Source: a virus. Taken from it: a stretch of 64,000 nucleotides of DNA. The stretch covers positions 31,587-95,586 of IMG/VR virus record IMGVR_UViG_3300044716_000844. One strand, given 5' to 3'. Below are positions 20,665 to 64,000 of this stretch, in pieces. The notes beneath the pieces were generated by a model, which was given only the letters and a program-made list of their open reading frames with translations, searched no databases and had not been told where the DNA came from. Position 1 is the stretch's first letter; each line of letters begins with the position of its first letter. A program made the translations under genes and the position numbers.

Positions 20665-21816
20665 ATGAAATCATTTAAAAAAATCCTAGAAACTGTTTAC
20701 CGCCCAAAAGGCGGAGATGAACAGGCTTTTCTTGACAAACATGTCATTAATGTTCTAGCTCATCCAACTGCTACTGAGTTTCAGTTCAAAGGTGCTAAGC
20801 CGCCAAAGGCTAAGCGCAAAGCTGACTATGATGAAAAAGAAGATCAAAAGGTTTATGAAGCAGCTGAGGTACACACCAAGCGCGCTGACAAAGAACCAGT
20901 CATTGTTCGTGCAGTAGATCCTAAGACGGGTGCTAGCAAGACAAAGGCCGTCATGCGTCGTGCTGGAGAGATTAAAATTGGTGAAGAAGTCGAGCTTGAC
21001 GAATCTATCACAAAGATGTCCGATGCACGTCTAAAGTTTCATGCTACAAAAAACGTACCACACGGCAGCTATACTCGTAAAGAAGTAGAAGATGAACATA
21101 AACGCCGGATGAAAACTGGTGGTATTTCATATACTTCTGTTAAGCCTTCATTGAACGAAGATGCCGATCTTGACGAGAAAGTAGATAATCCATACGCAGT
21201 CGGCATGGCTGCTGCTATGAAGTCAACTGGTGATACACCTCCTTTGAAGAAATCAACTATCGTTAAAGGTCATGAGATCGCAAAGAGCATCAAGAAAGAA
21301 GCAATGGATCCAGTCGGTAAGCACGATGCTGATATCGACAACGACGGTGACACTGACAAGTCTGACAAGTACTTAATCGCTCGTCGTAAGGCGATTGGCA
21401 AAGCACTTCGTAAAGAAGAAGCAGATCTTGAAGAAGCTACAGACTGGATTGTACATGTTCATAAGCCAGTGAATAAACTAAAGGCTGGTCAGTTTGTAAA
21501 AGTAAAAGCGCGTAACCAAGCAGAAGCAATTCGCAAAGGTGCTGCGAAGCATGGTGACGATTCAGCAAGACATGGTGACTTTCTTCGTGCAAAGAAGATG
21601 AACGAAGAAACCGAAGAACTTGATGAAGCTTTCAAGATTGGTGCGATGAAACTCAAAGATGGTTCTTCTGTAACACTTACTCGTGAAGATGTTGATGCGT
21701 TAAACAGTTTGTCTAAACTTCTTAATAGCGCTAATCAATCCAAAATGCAGGATCAAGTGACATCTAGTAAAAAAGAATTTAATCAAATCCTAGCATTTGC
21801 AAAGGAAGCAGTGTAA
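20665..21816 (+). CDS. Putative prohead/virion protein with EF-hand-like loop and cleavage sites
   Basis: 383 aa, very charged, no overall family recognised. It contains at least five (L)xE sites of the kind cut by the T4 prohead protease: LDE 111-113, LNE 163-165, LDE 169-171, LEE 255-257 and LDE 319-321. Between them lie small modules, including DADIDNDGDTDKSDKY at 221-236, which has the Asp spacing of an EF-hand or dockerin calcium loop. Its place between the core protein and protease genes suggests a protein packed into the prohead and cut into peptides at maturation. Starts with ATG after GTACTAAA; Shine-Dalgarno is weak. Confidence 0.7.
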   Translation: MKSFKKILETVYRPKGGDEQAFLDKHVINVLAHPTATEFQFKGAKPPKAKRKADYDEKEDQKVYEAAEVHTKRADKEPVIVRAVDPKTGASKTKAVMRRAGEIKIGEEVELDESITKMSDARLKFHATKNVPHGSYTRKEVEDEHKRRMKTGGISYTSVKPSLNEDADLDEKVDNPYAVGMAAAMKSTGDTPPLKKSTIVKGHEIAKSIKKEAMDPVGKHDADIDNDGDTDKSDKYLIARRKAIGKALRKEEADLEEATDWIVHVHKPVNKLKAGQFVKVKARNQAEAIRKGAAKHGDDSARHGDFLRAKKMNEETEELDEAFKIGAMKLKDGSSVTLTREDVDALNSLSKLLNSANQSKMQDQVTSSKKEFNQILAFAKEAV

Positions 21817-22081: not shown

Positions 22082-22741
22082 ATGGCCTTACTTATTAAAG
22101 ATATCGTCGAAGAGGTTCAGTATATTACTGAAGCTACCGAAAAGGGTGAAAAGAACTATTACATCGAAGGTATCATCATGCAAGGTGATATTAAGAATCG
22201 TAATGGCCGTATTTACCCGTCAAACGTTTTAATGCGCGAAATGAATCGTTATAACGAGAACTATGTGTCAAAGAATCGTGCATTTGGCGAACTTGGCCAC
22301 CCACAGGGGCCAACCATTAATCTTGATAGAGTTTCACACCTATTTACAGAATTAAGAGCCGATGGTTCAAACGTTGTAGGTAAAGCTAAAATTACTAAAA
22401 CTCCTATGGGTGATGTTGTTAAAGGACTCATCGATAGCGGTGCTCAATTAGGAATTTCTTCCCGTGGAATGGGATCTGTGAAGCCAAATGAAAAGGGCAT
22501 CATGGAAGTACAAAATGACTTTATGCTTGCTACGGCAGGTGATATTGTCGCAGACCCATCAGCTCCAGATGCTTTTGTAAAAGGTATTATGGAAGGTGTT
22601 GAATGGATCTACGACGTTGCGGCTTCTTCATGGACAGTGGCAAACACTTTTGATCAAATTGAAGAAGAAGTAAAAAAATCGAAGCAGATCGATGAAGCCG
22701 CTGCTTTAAAGATGTTCGAAAAGTTCTTAAAGAGCATGTAA
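22082..22741 (+). CDS. 21: Prohead protease gp21
   Basis: 219 aa (T4 gp21: 212 aa). The serine protease signature is visible: His 73 in FGELGHP and the Ser pair in LGISSRGMGSV (residues 123-133). It sits inside the prohead, activates itself, and cuts core, scaffold and capsid proteins after (L/I)xE. Flanked by gp67-like and gp22/gp23 genes as in T4. Its presence supports the cleavage-site predictions for other proteins in this window. Confidence 0.95.
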   Translation: MALLIKDIVEEVQYITEATEKGEKNYYIEGIIMQGDIKNRNGRIYPSNVLMREMNRYNENYVSKNRAFGELGHPQGPTINLDRVSHLFTELRADGSNVVGKAKITKTPMGDVVKGLIDSGAQLGISSRGMGSVKPNEKGIMEVQNDFMLATAGDIVADPSAPDAFVKGIMEGVEWIYDVAASSWTVANTFDQIEEEVKKSKQIDEAAALKMFEKFLKSM

Positions 22742-23771: not shown

Positions 23772-25055
23772 ATGAGAAACGAAGAACTATTGAAGAAGTG
23801 GGGCCCAGTGCTTGAGCACACCGCTCTTCCATCGATCAAGGATGCACATCGTAAAGCTGTCACCGCTCAGCTTCTCGAGAACACCGAAGTCGCTATCCGG
23901 GAAGGTCAGACATACGGTTCTGGTTCTTTCCTTACAGAAACCCCAGTGAACAACACTGGCGTTGCTGCAAACTACGATCCAGTGCTTATTAGCCTTGTTC
24001 GTCGTGCAATGCCTAACTTGATCGCATACGACATTGCTGGCGTTCAGCCAATGACTGGCCCAACCGGCTTGATCTTCGCAATGCGTTCAAACTACGCAAA
24101 CACCACCGCCGCAACAGCAGAAGCTTTCTACGGCGAAGCTGACACTGACTTCTCAGGCACCGGCACAATGGCTGGTTCAACCGGTAACGTTGCTACTGCA
24201 AACACTGGTACTGGTATGTCAACAGCAGCTGCTGAAGCTCTTGGTGACGGTGCTGGAACTGACTTCGCACAAATGTCATTCGACATTTCGAAGGTTACAG
24301 TTTCTGCTAAGAGCCGTGCGCTTAAAGCAGAATACACCAGTGAACTTGCACAGGACTTGAAAGCAATTCACGGCCTTGACGCTGAGACTGAGCTTGCAAA
24401 CATGCTTCAGGCTGAGCTTCTTGCAGAAATCAACCGTGAAGTTGTTCGTACAGTCTACAACACTGCAGTCACCGGTGCACAAACTGGTACAGCAACCGCT
24501 GGTATCTTCGACCTTGACGTTGACGCAAATGGCCGTTGGTCAGTTGAGAAGTTCAAGGGTCTTATGTTCCAGATCGAGCGCGAAGCTAACCAGCTCGCAA
24601 AAGACACCCGTCGTGGTAAGGGTAACATCATCATCTGCTCGTCAGATGTTGCATCTGCTCTTCAAATGGCTGGTATCCTTGACTACACCCCAGCGCTTAA
24701 CAGCAATGCTCTTAACGTAGACGACACCGGCAACACCTTCGCAGGTGTTCTCAATGGTCGCTTCCGCGTATACATTGACCCATATGCTGGCGCAAACTAC
24801 ATGGTTGTCGGCTACAAAGGTTCTTCACCTTTCGACGCTGGTATGTTCTACTGCCCATACGTTCCACTACAGATGGTACGTGCAGTTGGTGAGAACAGCT
24901 TCCAGGCTAAAATCGGCTTCAAAACCCGTTACGGCATGGTTGCTAACCCATTCGCAAAAGGCGCGACCAGATGGGTTGACGGCGATAACGATTCGGGTCT
25001 TACCAATAACTCGAACAGATACTACCGTCGCGTTCGCGTCACCAACATCCTCTAA
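23772..25055 (+). CDS. 23: Major capsid protein gp23
   Basis: 427 aa HK97-fold capsid subunit. Conserved gp23 blocks include DIAGVQPMTGPTGLIFAMRS at about residues 84-103, the AEYTSELAQDLKAIHGLDAE E-loop/spine region and the C-terminal RYGMVANPFA. The likely maturation cut is after LTE at residues 54-56, matching the gp21 consensus; T4 cuts after residue 65. T4 gp23 is 521 aa; the shorter form lacks the insertion domain. Codons are strongly biased to C-ending types, as expected for a very highly expressed gene. Confidence 0.96.
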   Translation: MRNEELLKKWGPVLEHTALPSIKDAHRKAVTAQLLENTEVAIREGQTYGSGSFLTETPVNNTGVAANYDPVLISLVRRAMPNLIAYDIAGVQPMTGPTGLIFAMRSNYANTTAATAEAFYGEADTDFSGTGTMAGSTGNVATANTGTGMSTAAAEALGDGAGTDFAQMSFDISKVTVSAKSRALKAEYTSELAQDLKAIHGLDAETELANMLQAELLAEINREVVRTVYNTAVTGAQTGTATAGIFDLDVDANGRWSVEKFKGLMFQIEREANQLAKDTRRGKGNIIICSSDVASALQMAGILDYTPALNSNALNVDDTGNTFAGVLNGRFRVYIDPYAGANYMVVGYKGSSPFDAGMFYCPYVPLQMVRAVGENSFQAKIGFKTRYGMVANPFAKGATRWVDGDNDSGLTNNSNRYYRRVRVTNIL

Positions 25056-31570: not shown

Positions 31571-32264
31571 ATTTATTTTTGATGTTGATGGTACACTTAC
31601 ACCATCTCGTGATGTGATTGACCCTATCTTTAAGACTTGGTTTCTACGATTTTGTTCGAACAACCCAGTCTATATCGTAACCGGAAGCGATAAGGCAAAG
31701 ACTATTGAGCAAATCGGGCAAGACGTATGGGACGCTTGTGCTCGAGTGTATCAATGTTCAGGTAACGATGTATGGGAAAACGGTGAAAGCATTCGAGTTA
31801 ACTCGTTTGAACCTACGGACGACATGAACAAGTTCTTCTCAATTTGGCTTAACTTAAGTAACTACAAGATAAGAACTGGACAACATGTAGATGTACGTCC
31901 AGGTCTGATTAACTTCAGTATCATCGGCCGCGGAGCCACAAAGGGCGAACGAGCCGATTATGTAAAATACGATGAAGAGAACGGTGATCGCCGTACTATC
32001 GCTGAAGCATTCAATAACTACTTTAGACCTGGTTACGTTGCTCAGGTGGCTGGTGAGACGGGTATCGATATTATGAGAGCCGGAGAAGATAAGTCACAGA
32101 TCATTCGTGACTTTACTTCAGGCGATAGACTACACTTCTTTGGTGATAAGATTATGCCTGGCGGTAATGATTACACCCTTGCGGCTGAAGTAATTAAAAG
32201 AAGTGGAAGTGTTTATAGTGTAAGAGATTGGAGAGAGACATGGCAGCACCTGAAAAGATCATAG
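31563..32264 (+). CDS. HAD phosphatase, phosphomannomutase-like
   Basis: 233 aa, start ATG 31563 after GGGAGATTG. HAD motif I DVDGT with nucleophile D7 and acid D9, TG(S) motif II (IVTGSD), and motif IV FGDKIMPGGNDY, plus RPGLINFSIIGRGA, which closely recalls eukaryotic-type phosphomannomutases (HAD IIB). It could convert mannose/glucose-6-phosphate to the 1-phosphate or act as a phosphatase. It overlaps the cytidylyltransferase gene by 25 bp, pointing to a shared sugar-nucleotide or polyol pathway. Confidence 0.75.
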   Translation: MNRFIFDVDGTLTPSRDVIDPIFKTWFLRFCSNNPVYIVTGSDKAKTIEQIGQDVWDACARVYQCSGNDVWENGESIRVNSFEPTDDMNKFFSIWLNLSNYKIRTGQHVDVRPGLINFSIIGRGATKGERADYVKYDEENGDRRTIAEAFNNYFRPGYVAQVAGETGIDIMRAGEDKSQIIRDFTSGDRLHFFGDKIMPGGNDYTLAAEVIKRSGSVYSVRDWRETWQHLKRS

Positions 32265-32683
32265 GATTTACTGCATCAACGTTTGACCTTCTTCATGCTG
32301 GTCATATCTCAATGCTGCGTGAAGCAAAAGAGCACTGTACCTATCTTATCGCTGCTTTGCAGGTAGATCCGTCTATCGACCGCAAAGAGAAGAACAAACC
32401 GGTTCAAACACTCGTAGAACGATACGTACAATTGTCTGCAGTGAAGTATGTAGATGAGATTGTGTGCTATGTGACTGAGCAAGATCTTGTTGACATTCTG
32501 CAGATGTATGATATAAATGTAAGGATACTTGGTGACGAGTACAAAGACAAAGACTTCACGGGTAAAGATGTGTGTCAAGCCCGAGGTATTGATTTGTACT
32601 TTAACAAGCGAGACCATCGCTTCAGTAGTTCTGGTCTACGTAAACGAATTTATGATATGGAGAAACTAAAAGATGTCAACTAA
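32240..32683 (+). CDS. Cytidylyltransferase (glycerol-3-P/TagD-like)
   Basis: 147 aa from ATG 32240, preceded by TTGGAGAGAGAC. The nucleotidyltransferase signature is complete: HAGH at 19-22 in STFDLLHAGHISML, and the closing RFSSSGLRKRI. Members of this family make CDP-glycerol or CDP-polyols from CTP. Substrate is unknown; adjacent to the HAD gene. An early-type promoter for the next gene lies within it (32490-32517). Confidence 0.8.
   Translation: MAAPEKIIGFTASTFDLLHAGHISMLREAKEHCTYLIAALQVDPSIDRKEKNKPVQTLVERYVQLSAVKYVDEIVCYVTEQDLVDILQMYDINVRILGDEYKDKDFTGKDVCQARGIDLYFNKRDHRFSSSGLRKRIYDMEKLKDVN
32490..32517 (+). promoter_or_regulatory. Early promoter inside cytidylyltransferase gene
   Basis: TTGACA, 16 bp, TATAAA; 155 bp before the pyrophosphohydrolase gene. 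Intragenic, so moderate confidence. Confidence 0.5.
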
Positions 32684-54647: not shown

Positions 54648-55733
54648 ATGGTTATCAAACCTTTTTCTAGCTTTGCTAAGTCAAAATCTGATATTTACAA
54701 AGAGATTGCCGATCTCTTGAATAAGATTGGAAAAGACAAGAACTATCAAGTAGCGCCAACTTTGCCGATGGGAAAGGTCGGTAAAGATAAAACTACACGT
54801 GAATTTAGAATGCAATTGATTGTGAAGACCGTTGATACATCTGAATCTTTTGTTGCGCATTTGAAAGCTGGTCTGCGTGGAAATAAGATTTTCGACGCTA
54901 AATACAACGTAATATCGCCAAATAGTTCAAAGTACTCAAGTTACACGTTTACGTATAAAGGTGTAATCGTTGATGCTGTCATTGCTCGGGGTGCAAACAA
55001 AGGTGAGAACTTCGAGACTCAGACCGTTGAAAATTTAAATATGTTTTTCATGGGAGCATCGGAACAAAGTTTTGCTAAGCTTGTAAGACAAATGGAAGAA
55101 GTATATCCACCATTTGCTGATACTGAAATCGTAAAGGTGAATCAGCGAAAAGGATCTACAAAAAAGACTGGAATACCGCTTGAAGAATTGAACGCAGTCA
55201 TTGGCGACATTGTTCTCACCGATCGTACTGGAAAGAAGTGGTATATCTCTCTGAAAGATGTGAGCGGCGGCACAGTAAGTGCATGGCCAGGTGGTGGTTC
55301 TATCTTCAACGCCAAAGGTGATCTGGTTGGAGATTCAGAAGGTGCAGAATTTCTTCGCACCTTCGGCGTAGATCTAAACAAAGTTCAAAGTGGCTTTGAT
55401 ATTCGAAACAACATTGATCCTAATACTCGTAGTAAACTTAAGACACCTAACGCGAATGTATCACAGATTGAAAAAATCTTTGAACGTGTATGGGGTCTGA
55501 ATTACTTCTATGTTCGTAAAAAATCGGGTGGATGGAAAGTATTCTGGCTAGACCGCAACAAACTCAACGAGCTATCACGGGGTATTAAGGTGACAAGGAT
55601 TGATTATCCTGGAATAACTTCAAAGTCAACACGAATTTTCTGCGAAAACACACATCAAAAATATCTTATTGAGATTCGAAACTCGAAGGGCGGCGAGTAT
55701 CCAAACGATATTAAATTTAGGGTAATACCATAA
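54648..55733 (+). CDS. Putative nuclease-like late protein (361 aa)
   Basis: Late promoter upstream; TAATG overlap with the ligase-like gene. Around residues 186-203 GDIVLTDRTGKKWYISLK gives D187 and S-L-K203, a pattern seen in PD-(D/E)XK nucleases that bind and cut DNA (D...xSxK). GANKGENFE at about 115 could supply another acidic residue. The rest shows no named family. I regard nuclease as a hypothesis; a virion protein is the alternative. Confidence 0.5.
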   Translation: MVIKPFSSFAKSKSDIYKEIADLLNKIGKDKNYQVAPTLPMGKVGKDKTTREFRMQLIVKTVDTSESFVAHLKAGLRGNKIFDAKYNVISPNSSKYSSYTFTYKGVIVDAVIARGANKGENFETQTVENLNMFFMGASEQSFAKLVRQMEEVYPPFADTEIVKVNQRKGSTKKTGIPLEELNAVIGDIVLTDRTGKKWYISLKDVSGGTVSAWPGGGSIFNAKGDLVGDSEGAEFLRTFGVDLNKVQSGFDIRNNIDPNTRSKLKTPNANVSQIEKIFERVWGLNYFYVRKKSGGWKVFWLDRNKLNELSRGIKVTRIDYPGITSKSTRIFCENTHQKYLIEIRNSKGGEYPNDIKFRVIP

Positions 55734-56962
55734 TGCTATCATTCGACAAGTTTCTCGTAGAATCAAAGAACACTCACATGGAGCATATCGAGGATAACAT
55801 CCTTAATGCTGGTGTCGAAGGTGCACGTCAGTCGATTAACTATCTTCGTTCTCTTCGTGACATGCTCGCTGGCAACTCTACGAAGTCAGTGAATGTAACT
55901 ATCAAGTGGGATGGTGCGCCAGCAGTCTTTGCAGGTATTGATCCAAGCGATGGTAAATTCTTTGTAGCAAAGAAGGGTATCTTCAATAAAGACCCAAAGG
56001 TGTATAAGACGCCAGCTGATATTGATGCAGATACATCAGGTGATTTGAACACTAAGCTCAAGATTGCTCTTGAAGAGCTCTCAAAGCTTGGTATTACAGG
56101 AGTGGTACAAGGTGACTTCTTATATTCGAAAGAAGATATACGAGAAGTGGATATTGATGGAGAATCGTATATTACTTTCCATCCTAACACGATTGTTTAC
56201 GCGATACCGAAGAACAGCCAACTTGCTCGTGAAATCCTTGCCTCAAGAATCGGTGTGGTCTGGCACACTACATACCGAGGAAACACTCTTGAATCAATGT
56301 CAGCGAGTTTTGGAGAGGAGATCGCAAGCGGCCTCAAGAAAACGAAGTCGGTCTGGTCAGTAGACGCAGTTTACAAAGACGTCTCGGGTTCTGCTAACTT
56401 TAATGCTGCCGAGACGAAAGAGATCACTGAGATCTTATCGAAGGCCGGTAAGATCTTCTCAGGATTAAAGAGATCAACTCTTGATGGAATCTCAGAGAAC
56501 GACGATCTTCTTATTCGTGTGAAGGCATACATCAACTCGAAGGTACGAGTTGGTGAACGTATTGGTAATACCACTCAGTTTGTTGATGGTCTTGTAAAAT
56601 ATGTGCACGACTATTATCAGAAAGAGATCGACAAGAAAGCGACTGATAAAGCAAAAGCTGCAGGTGAAGCGAAGCGTGCAGAAGTTATGAAGTACTTCTC
56701 AAATACTTCAAAGGCTGACATCGTGAAAATCTTTGATATGTACAACTACGTCGTAGATGCTAAGCACCTCATTATACGAAAACTAGATAAAGCAAAACAG
56801 ATTGGAACGTTCCTTAAAACTGCTGATGGCTACAAAGTTACAGAGCAAGAAGGATTCGTTGCAATCGATCACATGGGCAAGAACGCAGTAAAACTGGTCG
56901 ACAGACTTCAGTTCAGCCGCGCAAACTTCTCACCCGAAATCATAAAAGGATGGCAGCGTTAA
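55733..56962 (+). CDS. Nucleotidyltransferase (DNA/RNA ligase-like) protein
   Basis: 409 aa, a family I recall from many marine T4-like phages. VTIKWDGAPAVFAG puts K58 in a KxDG motif I like that of covalent nucleotidyltransferases (ligases, capping enzymes). Downstream elements fit the same fold: FFVAKKGIF, VVQGDFLYSKED (motif IV-like with Asp for Glu), FHPNTIVYAIP and GVVWHTTY. The 240-409 part is helical. It could join or adenylylate nucleic acid ends. No function has been shown to my knowledge; motif Arg residues are not certain. Confidence 0.6.
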   Translation: MLSFDKFLVESKNTHMEHIEDNILNAGVEGARQSINYLRSLRDMLAGNSTKSVNVTIKWDGAPAVFAGIDPSDGKFFVAKKGIFNKDPKVYKTPADIDADTSGDLNTKLKIALEELSKLGITGVVQGDFLYSKEDIREVDIDGESYITFHPNTIVYAIPKNSQLAREILASRIGVVWHTTYRGNTLESMSASFGEEIASGLKKTKSVWSVDAVYKDVSGSANFNAAETKEITEILSKAGKIFSGLKRSTLDGISENDDLLIRVKAYINSKVRVGERIGNTTQFVDGLVKYVHDYYQKEIDKKATDKAKAAGEAKRAEVMKYFSNTSKADIVKIFDMYNYVVDAKHLIIRKLDKAKQIGTFLKTADGYKVTEQEGFVAIDHMGKNAVKLVDRLQFSRANFSPEIIKGWQR

Positions 56963-58843: not shown

Positions 58844-58856
58844 ATTGGAGGAAGAT

Positions 58857-59414
58857 ATGGTAATAATGGATCGTGGCCACAACGGCGGTAATGTGTGGCG
58901 GTGGAAGACTCTTGAAAGATTTGTGAAAGAAAATAACTGGACTCGTGGGGCAGAGCTCGGCGTATGGTATGGTGAAACCTTTAAGTGGTTAGTAAATAAC
59001 TGTCCAGATCTTCGTTTGTTTGGTGTTGACTTATATGCAGAACAACCTGAGAATGATGGGCCGCAAAAGTACATTCCGGGCGAAGATGGTCACGTATGGA
59101 AGCATGAACAATACTATGAAGATATTAAGTCTTTTTGTGATGCATCGAACGGTAGAGCAACTATCTATCGTGGATACACTAATGAAGCGTCAAAGCTTGT
59201 TGAAGATGAGAGCCTAGATTTTGTATTCATCGATGCAGACCATTCATTTAAGGGTGTAGATGAAGATATTATTCATTGGATGCCAAAGGTGAAAAAAGGC
59301 GGGTACGTGATTGGGCATGATATTCATTGGCCGACTGTAAAAGAAGCTGTAGAAAAGCATTTTGGCGAAAACTACTTTAAAGAACAAGATTTTATTTGGT
59401 ATGTGATAAAATGA
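58857..59414 (+). CDS. SAM-dependent methyltransferase (class I)
   Basis: 185 aa from ATG 58857 (GGAGGAAGAT upstream). Motif I GAELGVWYGET binds S-adenosylmethionine; FVFIDADHSFKGVDED is the metal or acid motif of the Methyltransf_24 type that acts on sugars or small molecules. First of four ATGA-linked or closely spaced genes for surface or virion modification. Confidence 0.8.
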   Translation: MVIMDRGHNGGNVWRWKTLERFVKENNWTRGAELGVWYGETFKWLVNNCPDLRLFGVDLYAEQPENDGPQKYIPGEDGHVWKHEQYYEDIKSFCDASNGRATIYRGYTNEASKLVEDESLDFVFIDADHSFKGVDEDIIHWMPKVKKGGYVIGHDIHWPTVKEAVEKHFGENYFKEQDFIWYVIK

Positions 59415-60040
59415 TAAATGACGAACTTGCTATGAGAACTGTGGCCATCGAAGGTGTAGATAAATTACTCTGGCCAGTACGTGACTTTAATGCTTTTCAT
59501 TGGCCACTTCAAGATTGGATACGCGACAAAGAAGCTTTTCTAAAATTTGTAAAAGCAAGAGATGTTGTAGTACAAGCTGGTGGATGTTGTGGTATGTATC
59601 CTCGATTCTACAAGAATCATTTTAAGCGTGTATACACGTTTGAACCGAATCCTACAAATTATTATTGTCTTGAAAGAAACTGTGATGTCGAAGGTATACA
59701 TCACCAAAATGTTGCACTCGGTTCTGCTGAAAAACTAGTAAGCCTTGATTCACCGACTGCACCTGGCGAAGAAAATAACGTCGGCATGTATACAGTGAAT
59801 GAAAGTCCGGGTGAAGTAAAAATGATCACTATCGATAGTTTAGGCCTTGATAAGTGTGATCTAATCCACTTTGATCTTGAGGGATATGAAACCGAGGCTT
59901 TGAAGGGTGCTATAAATTTAATTGAGATGTGTAGTCCAGTTATCATTACCGAAAGAGAATGTGGACGAGAATTCCTTGAATCAATTGGTTATCGACTGGT
60001 TCAAAAGACTTCGATGGATGCTATTTTTGTGAGAGGTTGA
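59411..60040 (+). CDS. FkbM-family methyltransferase
   Basis: 209 aa from ATG 59411 (ATGA). VVVQAGGCCGMYPRFY is the SAM motif I of FkbM enzymes, and LIHFDLEGYETEALKG is the family's IKxDxEGxE signature. FkbM methyltransferases O-methylate sugars or polyketides. Likely modifies a glycan made or targeted by the neighbouring glycosyltransferases. Confidence 0.85.
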   Translation: MINDELAMRTVAIEGVDKLLWPVRDFNAFHWPLQDWIRDKEAFLKFVKARDVVVQAGGCCGMYPRFYKNHFKRVYTFEPNPTNYYCLERNCDVEGIHHQNVALGSAEKLVSLDSPTAPGEENNVGMYTVNESPGEVKMITIDSLGLDKCDLIHFDLEGYETEALKGAINLIEMCSPVIITERECGREFLESIGYRLVQKTSMDAIFVRG

Positions 60041-60042
60041 AT

Positions 60043-60690
60043 ATGAACATTGAAAAGAAGATGACGCAGATCTGGATCGGACCAAGACCTGCACCTATGA
60101 AGTGGATGAATACTTGGAAAGAAAAACATCCGGACTGGGAATATAGTATCTTTACTCAACAAGATCTTGAGTCAAGAAAATTCCATAATCAGCACCTAAT
60201 CGACCATTATTATGCTATGGGATTATATAGCGGAGTTTCTGACCTAATCCGATATGAACTGTTATACGAACGCGGCGGTTTCTTTCCAGAAGCAGACTTC
60301 TTGTGCATGGAAAATACTGATGAACTCTTTACTGCTCCAAAAGAATTCTGCTACACCTGTTATGAACAAGAAAAGATTCGTCCAGGATTTGTACAGCCTA
60401 TTCTTGCAGCAAATCCTGGCAATGACTTTGTGAAAACACTCGTTGATATCTTGCATCCTTTGCGCACAGATCAAATGAGTAGGTATCCGTGGAAATCTAC
60501 TGGCAACGAATGGCTAGCACATGTCATTCCACACTTTAAACCAAACATCGTAATTTGGCCTTCGCATTACTTTATCCCAACTCATTACGACCGCGCGATG
60601 CCAAATTATAATGGCACGGATAAAGTTTATGCTCATCACTTATGGGGTTCAACTGGCGGCGGCGTCGATTATCGGGAAGGTGTAAAATGA
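60043..60690 (+). CDS. Glycosyltransferase GT32-like
   Basis: 215 aa from ATG 60043. SDLIRYELLYERGGFFPEAD is the conserved GT32/Gly_transf_sug region (SDxxRyxxLyxxGG.YxDxD), with EAD in place of DxD. GSTGGG near the end matches the closing HHLWGSTW-type motif. Transfers a hexose from a nucleotide sugar. Substrate unknown. Overlaps the GT25-like gene (ATGA). Confidence 0.78.
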   Translation: MNIEKKMTQIWIGPRPAPMKWMNTWKEKHPDWEYSIFTQQDLESRKFHNQHLIDHYYAMGLYSGVSDLIRYELLYERGGFFPEADFLCMENTDELFTAPKEFCYTCYEQEKIRPGFVQPILAANPGNDFVKTLVDILHPLRTDQMSRYPWKSTGNEWLAHVIPHFKPNIVIWPSHYFIPTHYDRAMPNYNGTDKVYAHHLWGSTGGGVDYREGVK

Positions 60691-61367
60691 TTCCTACTAA
60701 AGCATATATTTTAACTATTGACAATCATATCTCAAGAGAGTATGCTAAGACTTGTGCGGACTCGTGTGACGCGGTTGGGTTAGCATGGGAATATTTTGAA
60801 GGATACACCAACATATCGATATATGATTCCTGGCTCAGAACCGGAATAAACACTCCTACACTGCATGGCTTAGTTGGAAATCCACGTATAGATAATACAC
60901 AGTGTTGCTCTGCAGGCCATGCAGCTATTTGGAAAAAGATATCTGAAGGTAATGAAGCTGCTATTGTTCTTGAACACGATGCAATAATGTTACATAATCC
61001 AAACGTCGATATTCCCGATGATAGAATCGTAGTGCTTGGATATAAGACAACTGACCCTTCAAAGTATGACCACATCTCAGCTGGTCCTCCTCAAAGAGTT
61101 ATTGAATTAGCAGCACATGAAGGCGCCCACGCGTACGCGCTTACACCAACTACTGCTAAAGCAATGGTTACTGAAATCGAAACATATGGAGTTCTAGGTT
61201 GCATTGACAACGCATACTTCATTAAGAATCAGCGTAGAACAAATACTCCTTTGGCTATCATGGACCCAACTCCAGCTATTGGATGGCTACGAGAGTCGAC
61301 TCTGTGGAAAAAGTCAGCTACCGCAAACTATGATTTTATTCCATCGTTTTCTTGTCATTTCCGTTAA
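60687..61367 (+). CDS. Glycosyltransferase GT25-like
   Basis: 226 aa from ATG 60687 (ATGA). It opens KAYILTIDNHISREYAKTC, and CCSAGHAAIWKKISEGNEAA then IVLEHDAIML match GT25 (GCxxSH..aw..i...... .aiilEDDa) including the acidic EHD metal site. GT25 includes LPS galactosyltransferases and collagen galactosyltransferases. Last of the modification cassette, before a late promoter. Confidence 0.8.
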   Translation: MIPTKAYILTIDNHISREYAKTCADSCDAVGLAWEYFEGYTNISIYDSWLRTGINTPTLHGLVGNPRIDNTQCCSAGHAAIWKKISEGNEAAIVLEHDAIMLHNPNVDIPDDRIVVLGYKTTDPSKYDHISAGPPQRVIELAAHEGAHAYALTPTTAKAMVTEIETYGVLGCIDNAYFIKNQRRTNTPLAIMDPTPAIGWLRESTLWKKSATANYDFIPSFSCHFR

Positions 61368-61369
61368 AC

Positions 61370-61377
61370 TATAAATA
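61370..61377 (+). promoter_or_regulatory. Late promoter for the long multidomain gene
   Basis: TATAAATA three bases after the GT25 stop, 58 bp before ATG 61435; leader has GTGAGGAGAATCTT. Confidence 0.8.
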
Positions 61378-61434: not shown

Positions 61435-64000
61435 ATGGAAAAGAAGTCTAAAAAAGACGAAAAGCTTAATAACAACCGCATTGAAGTGAATCCAACTCTC
61501 AAGGAAGCTTCATCAAAAAAGGTAGTTATCTCTTGGGGAAGAATGAACCCTCCAACTATTGGCCACGAAAAGCTGGTAAAAAAGGTTCAGGAAGTTGCTC
61601 GTAAAATTGGCGGCAAGGCTGAAATTTACTTGAGCCAGTCACAAGACGCAAAAAAGAATCCACTCTCGTATTCAGATAAAGTTATGATCGCCAAAGAAGC
61701 ATTTGGCGGTATTATTCAGTCGTCACCTGCAAAAACAATTATTGACTTAATGAAGTCGCTTCAATCAAAATATGATGAAGTGACCGTTGTCGTAGGACAG
61801 GATCGTGTACAGGAGTTTGAGACTCTATTAAATAAGTATAATGGCAAAGACTATACAATGAAGTCAATTGCTGTTGTGTCTGCAGGCGAAAGAGATCCAG
61901 ATGCCGAAGGCGTAGAAGGTATGTCTGCTTCAAAAATGAGAGAAGCAGCAGCTAAGGGTGAAGAAGATAAATTCAAATCCGGTCTTCCAGTAAAGCTTAA
62001 ATCACATGCGCAAGACATCTATGATATGGTTCGGGCAGGTATGAAACTATCAGAAGATGTTGAACTTGACGAATATGTTTTGAATTTCTCACAGCGCAGA
62101 AAGCGTGCTCTTGTAATGCGTAAGTATGAACGCAAAATGGAAGCTGCTCGGGAAAGACTAAAGAACCGTATTGCTTCAAATCAAAAGCTAGCGATAAGAG
62201 CTCGTAAGAAAGCGATTGAACTCATCCGTAAAAGAGTTGCTGGTGATCGTGGCGCTAACTATGCAGATCTTTCGCCATCAGAAAAGATCATGATCGATCA
62301 AAGAGTTGAGAAGAGAAAAGGTGCTATCGCAAAGATTGCAGCACGTCTTCTTCCAAAGGTACGTAAAGCAGAGCTTCAAAGAGTTGCTTCTCTACACCAA
62401 CAGAAAGAAGACGTTGATCATGCATTTGAATCGTTGTTCAACGAAGATTATTATGCTGGTCTAAGCAAGTCAACTGCAGCAAAGCGTAAAGCTCACTTTA
62501 ATAAGTACGGTGAAATGGACGACGACAATCCAGCCGCATACAAGCCAGCGCCTGGAGATGCTACTGCTAAGACTAAGCCATCTGTCCATACTCGTCGTTA
62601 TCACATGATGTACAATGGAGACGGTTCATTAAAATATGATCGCCGCTTCCGTGCTTTCCGTCATATTGTTCGTCAAGAAGAACTCGAAGTAGAGAACGAC
62701 GCCGATCTTATCGAAATGATGATGATCGCAGAAGAGATTAGTAGTTCGATTAATCTTGACGAAGCAAAGGCCATGGAAGGCCTGAAAAATAAAGCTGAGA
62801 AGTCAGGTATCTCCTATAGTACTTTAAAGAAAGTATTTGACCGTGGAGTCGCTGCGTGGAAAACCGGTCATCGTCCAGGCACTACTCCGCAGCAATGGGG
62901 TTATGCTCGTGTAAATTCTTACATCACCAAAGGTAAGGGAACTTACCATGGTGCAGATAAAGATCTTCGCGAAGAGGGTCTAAACGAAGGCGTAAATGAT
63001 CCTTCAATCTTCAAAGCCGTGTTTCTTGCAGGTGGACCAGGATCAGGCAAGTCATTCATCGTTGGTAAGACTGCACTTACAGCACTTGGTTTTAAAGTAA
63101 TTAACTCTGACGATGTGTTCGAGCGTGCACTCGCAAAAGCAGGTCTTAAGACTACACCTGAAGACATCTACTCAGAAAAAGGTCAAGAGATTCGTAGTGC
63201 AGCGAAAGCTATCACCGGCAAGAAGATGGACCTTGCTCTTGCAGGACGTCTTGGTTTAGTTATCGACGGAACCGGTAAAGATTACGAAAAGATCGAGAAG
63301 CAAGCTTCAAAGCTCAAGAAGCTTGGGTATGAAGTCGCGATGATCTTTGTCAACACCGACCTCGATACTGCTAAAGCTCGTAATGCTGCACGTAGCAGAT
63401 CACTACCGGATACAGAAGTTGAGTCGATGTGGAACGGTGTTCAAAAGAACATTGGTAAGTTCCAGAACTTCTTTGGTACTAAGATGTTCGTAATCGATAA
63501 CTCTGAAGGATCTAACTTTGAAGGTGCTGTTACTTCTACATACCGCAAGATCAGTTCATGGGCAAAGATAACACCTACGAATCCTGAAGCAAAATCATGG
63601 ATCTCTTCAGCGAGAACTGTAAAAGAAGATAAGATGTCGGTGAAGCACCATCTTGGAATTGGTGTCCCGTTCAAGCATCAGTACAAAGATAATGTTAAGC
63701 ACATCGATACTGATCTTGATGGTGACGTAGATGCAGATGACTTCAAATACGCAGCCCCAGACGAGACAATCGGTGACGATGCTGAGACGAAGAAGCTTCT
63801 CAAAAAATATTCTAACGAGAAAAAGCACACTCGTAAGGGTGTAGCGTTTGAGCAAGTTATACCTACTCCAGTGATTCCGCCAGAATCAAATGACGGCACC
63901 GACGACCATGTTGAAAAGCACATCGATGCAGTTCTAAAACGCACAAAGAAGTTAAAGTATTTTAGAGCTTACCATGAAGCCTATGGTGCTGGATTCGAAA
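61435..64000 (+). CDS. Multidomain NMNAT-like/kinase-like protein, 3' end outside window
   Basis: The frame is open from ATG 61435 to the end of the window, at least 855 codons. N-terminal nucleotidyltransferase: GRMNPPTIGH at 35-44 (HxGH) and SASKMR at about 164-169, as in NMN adenylyltransferases. A basic coiled region (about 210-340) follows, then a KAHFNKYGEMDDDNPAAYKP module and a DUF5824-type module (SYSTLKKVFDRGVAAWKTGH). At 533-540 GGPGSGKS starts a P-loop kinase domain. An EF-hand-like loop DTDLDGDVDADD starts at 758. LDE 211-213, LDE 441-443 and LNE 516-518 at module borders fit prohead protease sites. Confidence 0.75.
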   Translation, partial: MEKKSKKDEKLNNNRIEVNPTLKEASSKKVVISWGRMNPPTIGHEKLVKKVQEVARKIGGKAEIYLSQSQDAKKNPLSYSDKVMIAKEAFGGIIQSSPAKTIIDLMKSLQSKYDEVTVVVGQDRVQEFETLLNKYNGKDYTMKSIAVVSAGERDPDAEGVEGMSASKMREAAAKGEEDKFKSGLPVKLKSHAQDIYDMVRAGMKLSEDVELDEYVLNFSQRRKRALVMRKYERKMEAARERLKNRIASNQKLAIRARKKAIELIRKRVAGDRGANYADLSPSEKIMIDQRVEKRKGAIAKIAARLLPKVRKAELQRVASLHQQKEDVDHAFESLFNEDYYAGLSKSTAAKRKAHFNKYGEMDDDNPAAYKPAPGDATAKTKPSVHTRRYHMMYNGDGSLKYDRRFRAFRHIVRQEELEVENDADLIEMMMIAEEISSSINLDEAKAMEGLKNKAEKSGISYSTLKKVFDRGVAAWKTGHRPGTTPQQWGYARVNSYITKGKGTYHGADKDLREEGLNEGVNDPSIFKAVFLAGGPGSGKSFIVGKTALTALGFKVINSDDVFERALAKAGLKTTPEDIYSEKGQEIRSAAKAITGKKMDLALAGRLGLVIDGTGKDYEKIEKQASKLKKLGYEVAMIFVNTDLDTAKARNAARSRSLPDTEVESMWNGVQKNIGKFQNFFGTKMFVIDNSEGSNFEGAVTSTYRKISSWAKITPTNPEAKSWISSARTVKEDKMSVKHHLGIGVPFKHQYKDNVKHIDTDLDGDVDADDFKYAAPDETIGDDAETKKLLKKYSNEKKHTRKGVAFEQVIPTPVIPPESNDGTDDHVEKHIDAVLKRTKKLKYFRAYHEAYGAGFE

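Follow-up and report, generated by a model that had tools for sequence, protein, structure and literature searches.

The gene at the 3′ end of the window raises the question of why a T4-like phage should join an adenylyltransferase-like enzyme, a polynucleotide-kinase-like enzyme and several smaller modules in one long chain. By the window we mean the whole 64,000-nucleotide stretch analysed, positions 31,587–95,586 and hence the 3′ part of an uncultured virus record of 95,586 b (IMGVR_UViG_3300044716_000844). Our preferred answer, to which we assign a probability of roughly 0.7, is that the gene encodes a late T4-like head-cargo polyprotein that would be cut by the gp21 protease at its module junctions and delivered with the DNA. 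The evidence computed here consists of the modular build of the chain, the position and conservation of its protease sites, the capsid-targeting sequences (CTS) of standalone relatives, a late promoter and a gp21 gene.

The open reading frame (61435..63999, + strand, as are all its parts below) has an ATG start and no stop before the end of the window; since this is also the end of the record, the 855-aa product lacks its C-terminus. The initial annotation had looked to the sequence past 64000, where the record stops; the C-terminus is supplied by two near relatives, L002 (1022 aa) and L003 (1096 aa), which complete the polyprotein with one further, final module after the tail. The chain opens with a 24-residue peptide (61435..61506) that lacks a CTS heptad and ends NPTLKE/A, where the slash marks the predicted gp21 site after E24; this peptide has pLDDT <50 in the model, and long relatives keep P.[LIV].E ahead of the adenylyltransferase. 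Then come the NMN/NaMN-adenylyltransferase-like module (residues 25–207, 61507..62055; PHROG 3041/395), a double site LSE/DVELDE/Y after E207 and E213 (62047..62073) whose model segment 207–215 is of low confidence, and a basic helical module ending FESLFNE/D at E337 (62074..62445). A short, mostly disordered module (YYAGLSKST..., low model confidence) runs up to LDE/A at E443 (62446..62763), followed by the DUF5824 module up to LNE/G at E518 (62764..62988), the P-loop kinase (residues 519–731, 62989..63627) and a disordered tail with the calcium-loop-like DTDLDGDVDADDF (63628..63999), the C-terminal module being lost at the contig end. Standalone homologues of the helical and DUF5824 modules carry a CTS.

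Pfam matched DUF5824 at residues 450–512 (PF19141, E 2e-20), an AAA_33/Zeta kinase at 527–681 and, below threshold, CTP_transf_like at 34–170, while PHROGs assigned residues 11–315 to 'cytidyltransferase' (E 7e-91). These matches, with the structure matches given below and the presence of DTDLDGDVDADDF, bear out the initial annotation of a multi-module frame of at least 855 residues. An AlphaFold model of L003 has a mean pLDDT of 66.7; confidence is high within the adenylyltransferase, helical, DUF5824 and kinase modules and low in the stretches between them. Compared with the window protein, L003 has one complete extra module, bordered by LKE/ and LLDE/. A literature search on DUF5824 found nothing.

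From its gene content this is the genome of a T4-like phage, with PHROG profiles recognising terminase, portal, a gp67-like core protein, gp21 protease, gp22, gp23 and a gp55-type late sigma factor. The gp21-type prohead (head maturation) protease lies at 22082..22741 (+ strand; phrog_207, E 7e-78). The gp23 major capsid protein (23772..25055, + strand; phrog_138) has its expected gp21 site at GSFLTE/T, where T4 gp23 has GSFLTE/A at the equivalent place. A T4-type late promoter, TATAAATA (61370..61377, + strand), lies 57 b upstream of the polyprotein start codon; the window holds 13 sites of this type against 2.2 expected, a number reached in 0 of 100 shuffles. By this promoter the polyprotein gene would be a late gene, as first proposed, in a genome that also encodes gp21, the setting of a T4-type head protein.

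Several other genes around the locus deserve mention. Directly upstream of the polyprotein (window 58845–61367) are two methyltransferases (Methyltransf_24, FkbM) and two glycosyltransferases; L003 has another gene set at the matching position. A second HxGH-type nucleotidyltransferase (window 32228–32683) is heptose 1-phosphate adenylyltransferase-like (phrog_7878), and its start has no capsid-targeting peptide. Upstream of the window (G000:C1 9529–20464, comprising L017 9529–15684 and L018 776–4964) are five radical-SAM genes, possibly six, one with a B12-binding domain, close to the large tail-type genes of the phage; such a count is unusual for a phage.

The HxGH-type site of the polyprotein is intact (GRMNPPTIGH ... 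GMSASKMR), and among the matches listed GRxNPxTxGH occurs in 212/217 and S-x-S-x-x-R in 201/217 family members. The HxGH-type and SxSxxR-type motifs, in a nucleotidyltransferase fold for which Foldseek with the L003 model finds the NaMN adenylyltransferase 3e27 (E 7e-4), are those of an NMN/NaMN adenylyltransferase. Because NCBIfam matches fall far below the curated NMNAT cut-offs (e.g., 13.9 vs. 127 bits), we take NAD+ synthesis by this module to be plausible and not established; searching PDB sequences by means of the NMNAT profile gave weak matches only.

The kinase profile aligns with T4 PseT over the whole kinase domain (hhalign, 96% probability, E 4e-9), and the full-length PNK-like domain has its Walker A motif. 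Its best solved structures by Foldseek are polynucleotide kinases (4mde and 1ly1, TMt 0.69–0.72), Clostridium Pnkp and T4 PNK among them. Close behind come adenylate kinases and zeta toxins, so the fold alone leaves the substrate unsettled. Sequence and modelled fold together nonetheless place the domain closest to polynucleotide 5′-kinases, so that it most likely acts on nucleic-acid ends; for the kinase, the RNA/DNA end repair put forward earlier is thus favoured. Unlike T4 PseT and bacterial Pnkp, which it otherwise resembles in sequence and fold, the kinase module has no fused phosphatase domain; relatives encode a HAD phosphatase in a gene of its own that bears a CTS. The Agrobacterium phage Atu_ph07 (L347 1748–4084) encodes a 778-aa protein in which the kinase follows EVTE/GVN and the part N-terminal to it has ADP-ribosyltransferase-like motifs (YRGM...STSL), possibly an ADP-ribosyltransferase-kinase cargo fusion.

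A different account of function would have the cargo mainly restoring NAD+ against an NAD-depleting defence, its kinase being a nicotinamide-riboside kinase as in NadR, where an adenylyltransferase and a P-loop kinase also share one chain. The NMNAT-like fold and motifs fit this, and NAD+ salvage through NadR/NadM has been described in phages (PMC9503650). We nevertheless regard it as unlikely: the kinase resembles polynucleotide kinases rather than the NadR kinase, NadR-type models match only marginally, the kinase is absent from most NMNAT relatives among the matches listed, and the two modules stand ~300 residues and several protease sites apart in the polyprotein.

T4 gp21 cuts after L/I-x-E (PMC9026906), and LxE sites between modules were the feature from which the initial annotation argued for prohead processing. 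The inter-module sites are E24 (LKE/A), E207 (LSE/D), E213 (LDE/Y), E337 (FNE/D), E443 (LDE/A), E518 (LNE/G) and E731 (VKE/D), so that the gp21 consensus stands where cleavage of a T4-type head protein is expected, before the first module, and again at further borders. The site at E337 reads FNE and not LxE in the window protein, while relatives have LNE or LDE there, within the CTS-like FESFLNE or FESFLDE of L002 and L003. The raw LxE count of the single polyprotein is at chance relative to shuffled expectation, and the test was therefore moved to the position of sites. Several hundred related loci were fetched by pattern-based scans, which are biased to close relatives, and one profile was built per module.

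Among the multi-module proteins in the matches listed, linkers hold 819 [LI]xE sites against 444 after shuffling (1.84-fold; z 19.6, a score that overstates independence because many of the sequences are related), and folded modules 174 against 276 (0.63). The control motifs [LI]xD, [LI]xK, [LI]xxE and [AS]xE deviate from expectation in linkers by ~10% at most, with E.[LI] (1.17) and VxE (1.36) mildly up. A diverse linker subset of these matches, in which kinship is lessened and still present, agrees with the full set (556 vs. 309). Full CTS heptads follow the same division among the matches listed, with 51 in linkers (14.7 expected) and 1 in modules (15.7 expected). In the model of L003, 11/15 sites fall in low-confidence linkers, compared with 35/74 of all glutamates. 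Among the matches listed, the cleavage residue of the kinase keeps its position in 95% of standalone copies and in 90% of internal ones, and the basic helical module has its site at −2 in 56% and 54%, respectively; the weakest border is that before YYAGLSKST, with a site in 26% of family members. What supports the sites is thus where they stand, not how many there are.

This distribution bears on whether the chain might be packaged and injected whole, as a single uncut multidomain effector. Multidomain polyvalent virion proteins are established and some are injected unprocessed (PMC5512222), yet here linkers alone are enriched in the protease consensus, while modules are depleted of it, and standalone and fused kinases share the position of the cleavage residue, which makes an uncut effector improbable. 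The likeness to polyvalent proteins is otherwise real, for these too are multidomain, mosaic, probably injected and active early in infection (Iyer et al., 2017, PMC5512222), and among the related loci listed (at least 336) module order shuffles freely and modules often stand alone. Many polyvalent proteins carry their own peptidase domain (PMC5512222); Pfam scans of the window, L002 and L003 proteins found none of the polyvalent hallmark domains (zincin-like peptidase, ART, helicase, others), and with no in-chain peptidase found, we ascribe separation of the modules to the gp21 of the phage.

A slimmer chance attaches to a role as a part of the prohead core or scaffold, in which the enzyme-like folds would serve assembly and most of the protein would, as with gp22, gp67 and gp68, be degraded and disappear. 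The chain does contain basic helical and low-complexity modules, and the core proteins of T4 undergo cleavage at several LxE sites and for the most part exit the head (PMC9026906). The phage, however, already has gp22 and a gp67-like protein, and the catalytic motifs are intact in nearly all NMNAT and kinase copies among the matches listed.

Cargo enters the T4 head by way of a 10-residue N-terminal CTS with key positions 4, 7, 8 and 10 (PMC9026906); T4 IPII and IPIII both start MKTYQEFIAE/A (T4 genome record). By the heptad criterion [FY]xx[FYLIMVH][LIVMT]xE within the first residues, the N-terminus of the polyprotein itself, MEKKSKKDEKLNNNRIEVNPTLKE, has no CTS heptad, and for this reason we say that the chain works like the T4-type CTS internal head proteins and do not class it among them. 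Standalone copies of every module type do carry N-termini like those of T4 internal proteins, such as MLKFSQFISE/GVNDP, MKSFQQYLDE/GVNDP and similar for the kinase, MINSFKNFLVE/D for the adenylyltransferase, MLSFKQFVSE/VL for the helical module, MKFSQYISE/D for DUF5824, MINFKEFITE/Q for DUF6267 and MLSFKSFITE/Q for the HAD phosphatase. The strict pattern M..F..F[LI].E is found in 224/458 distinct standalone N-termini among the matches listed, compared with 0.56% of shuffled N-termini and 123/1844 neighbouring ORFs, a control set that is not clean, since many of these ORFs are plainly cargo too, so that the contrast is conservative. A distant relative of the kinase in Cronobacter phage S13 (Straboviridae; L348 2438–3307) starts MNFKEFCQLDE/A, indicating that enterobacterial relatives of T4 have the tagged kinase as well. 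Our search for the capsid targeting sequence in cyanophages turned up only a T4 review citing a cyanophage paper.

Published proteomes of CsCl-purified virions from the cyanomyoviruses S-SCSM1, S-CREM2 and S-SZBM1 include NMNAT-like proteins (PMC9602691, PMC10665884, PMC9146016), with possible lysate carry-over flagged by the authors of two of the proteomes, S-SCSM1 and S-CREM2 (PMC9602691, PMC10665884). The starts of these proteins, MKSFLQFLKE/A, MKNFSSFLTE/A and MRFRQFIIE/A, respectively, all fit the targeting pattern (3/3). These reports cover homologues of one module of the polyprotein only, the NMNAT. In S-SZBM1 the DUF6267 protein adjoining the NMNAT begins MAKNTHLEH, without a targeting peptide, and its locus tag is absent from the main text including the proteome table (PMC9146016); the direction is as expected, and the evidence weak. 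The cyanomyovirus module is homologous to ours and has a late or virion context, the difference being that it is usually a single-enzyme gene, with a CTS that went unnoticed by its authors, and here it is fused to kinase, DUF5824 and other modules.

A chance-level raw LxE count, an N-terminus without the heptad and possible carry-over in the proteomes would suit an unpackaged, cytoplasmic late metabolic or repair enzyme with incidental LxE sites, a slight prospect in view of the position-specific enrichment with its controls and of the CTS that standalone relatives share with each of the three NMNATs detected in virions. Head-cargo packaging of a prohead-processed chain, the reading first advanced, is instead well supported: border sites, targeting peptides on standalone relatives, the three proteomes, the late promoter and the gp21 gene speak for it, and the missing CTS heptad at the polyprotein's own N-terminus speaks against it. 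Cleavage and injection of this particular chain are inferred from sequence.

By analogy, the proposed mechanism is the one used by T4 internal proteins, here applied to a polyprotein that would be cut. Like IPI–IPIII and Alt, which are CTS-targeted and gp21-processed, the polyprotein has LxE sites and comes from a T4-like genome with a late promoter, its standalone relatives share the start pattern of MKTYQEFIAE/A, and the cargo is diverse and exchangeable. It differs in having many modules per chain with a site at each border, in its NMNAT- and PNK-type enzymes, and in its own N-terminus. The chain would be made late and taken into the prohead core, where gp21 would cut it after [LI]xE at the inter-module junctions, freeing inside the head two enzymes, one adenylyltransferase-like and one polynucleotide-kinase-like, together with a basic helical protein, a DUF5824 protein and smaller fragments. 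As to how it enters the head, its N-terminus has no heptad, while relatives contain CTS-like heptads inside their chains (FESFLNE, FETLLDE, FEALVEE). The freed enzymes would leave together with the DNA and go to work as infection begins, the kinase most likely mending nucleic-acid ends and the adenylyltransferase perhaps acting on nucleotides or NAD+.

Other genes may belong to the same system. A DUF6267 protein (55733..56962, + strand; Pfam E 6e-111) has the CTS-like start MLSFDKFLVE/S and is probably head cargo; the strict CTS pattern is found in 115/176 distinct standalone DUF6267 relatives among the matches listed, and DUF6267 often co-occurs with the adenylyltransferase, one PHROG profile covering both. 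Its motifs KWDGAP, EGFV and VKLV recall nucleotidyltransferase ligases. An RNA/DNA ligase assignment was tried and is kept as a motif-based idea only, with hhalign below 1% to T4 Rnl1, Rnl2 and gp30, no PDB sequence match, no Pfam ligase, and a best Foldseek E of 0.07, tRNA ligases appearing only at E 0.8–2. The genes beside DUF6267 possibly encode a packaged nuclease: the one in the window (54648–55733) has a possible PD-(D/E)XK-like pattern (DIVLTDSTGKKWYISLKD), and that of HTVC008M (L014 5191–6249) starts MLSFTGYSNLSE/A and contains TDFTIGNNKISLKSG. Between the gp67-like and gp21 genes, a 383-aa protein (20665..21816, + strand) starting MKSFKKILE/T has LDE/LEE spacers, five L[DEN]E sites against 0.3 expected and a loop DNDGDTDKSD; it is probably another head-cargo polyprotein processed by gp21. 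In L002 (9064–10270) and L003 (9301–10778), the genes immediately downstream of the module-chain polyprotein start MKTFKEMLAE/A, MKSFKLFLEH, MKSFKQFVESE and MQGFREFIEE, CTS-like starts that suggest a cargo gene cluster.

That cyanophage virions contain NMNAT was already known. The literature searched, which took in a minority of subscription papers, yielded no mention of its targeting peptide or of the modular family, punctuated by protease sites, to which it belongs, and this form of T4-type head cargo has apparently gone unrecognised in marine T4-like phages. The head-targeting peptides offer a sequence-based reason for the recurrence of NMNAT-like 'auxiliary metabolic' enzymes in these virions. 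They also yield a rule for predicting head cargo, M..F..F[LI].E at the start and [LI]xE between modules, applicable to hundreds of marine T4-like phages, by which 'hypothetical' genes (DUF5824, DUF6267, kinase) become testable early-infection factors, and the natural polyproteins may be a template for loading several enzymes into T4 capsids. More tentatively, at somewhat less than even odds, T4-like phages of sea and fresh water would share a cargo system of interchangeable tagged modules, encoded as single genes or as cut polyproteins, through which the virion may, right at the onset of infection, bring in a tailored kit for the repair of nucleic acids and nucleotides (polynucleotide kinase, phosphatase, adenylyltransferase and DUF6267), probably as a counter to nucleases of the host or to defences that deplete NAD.
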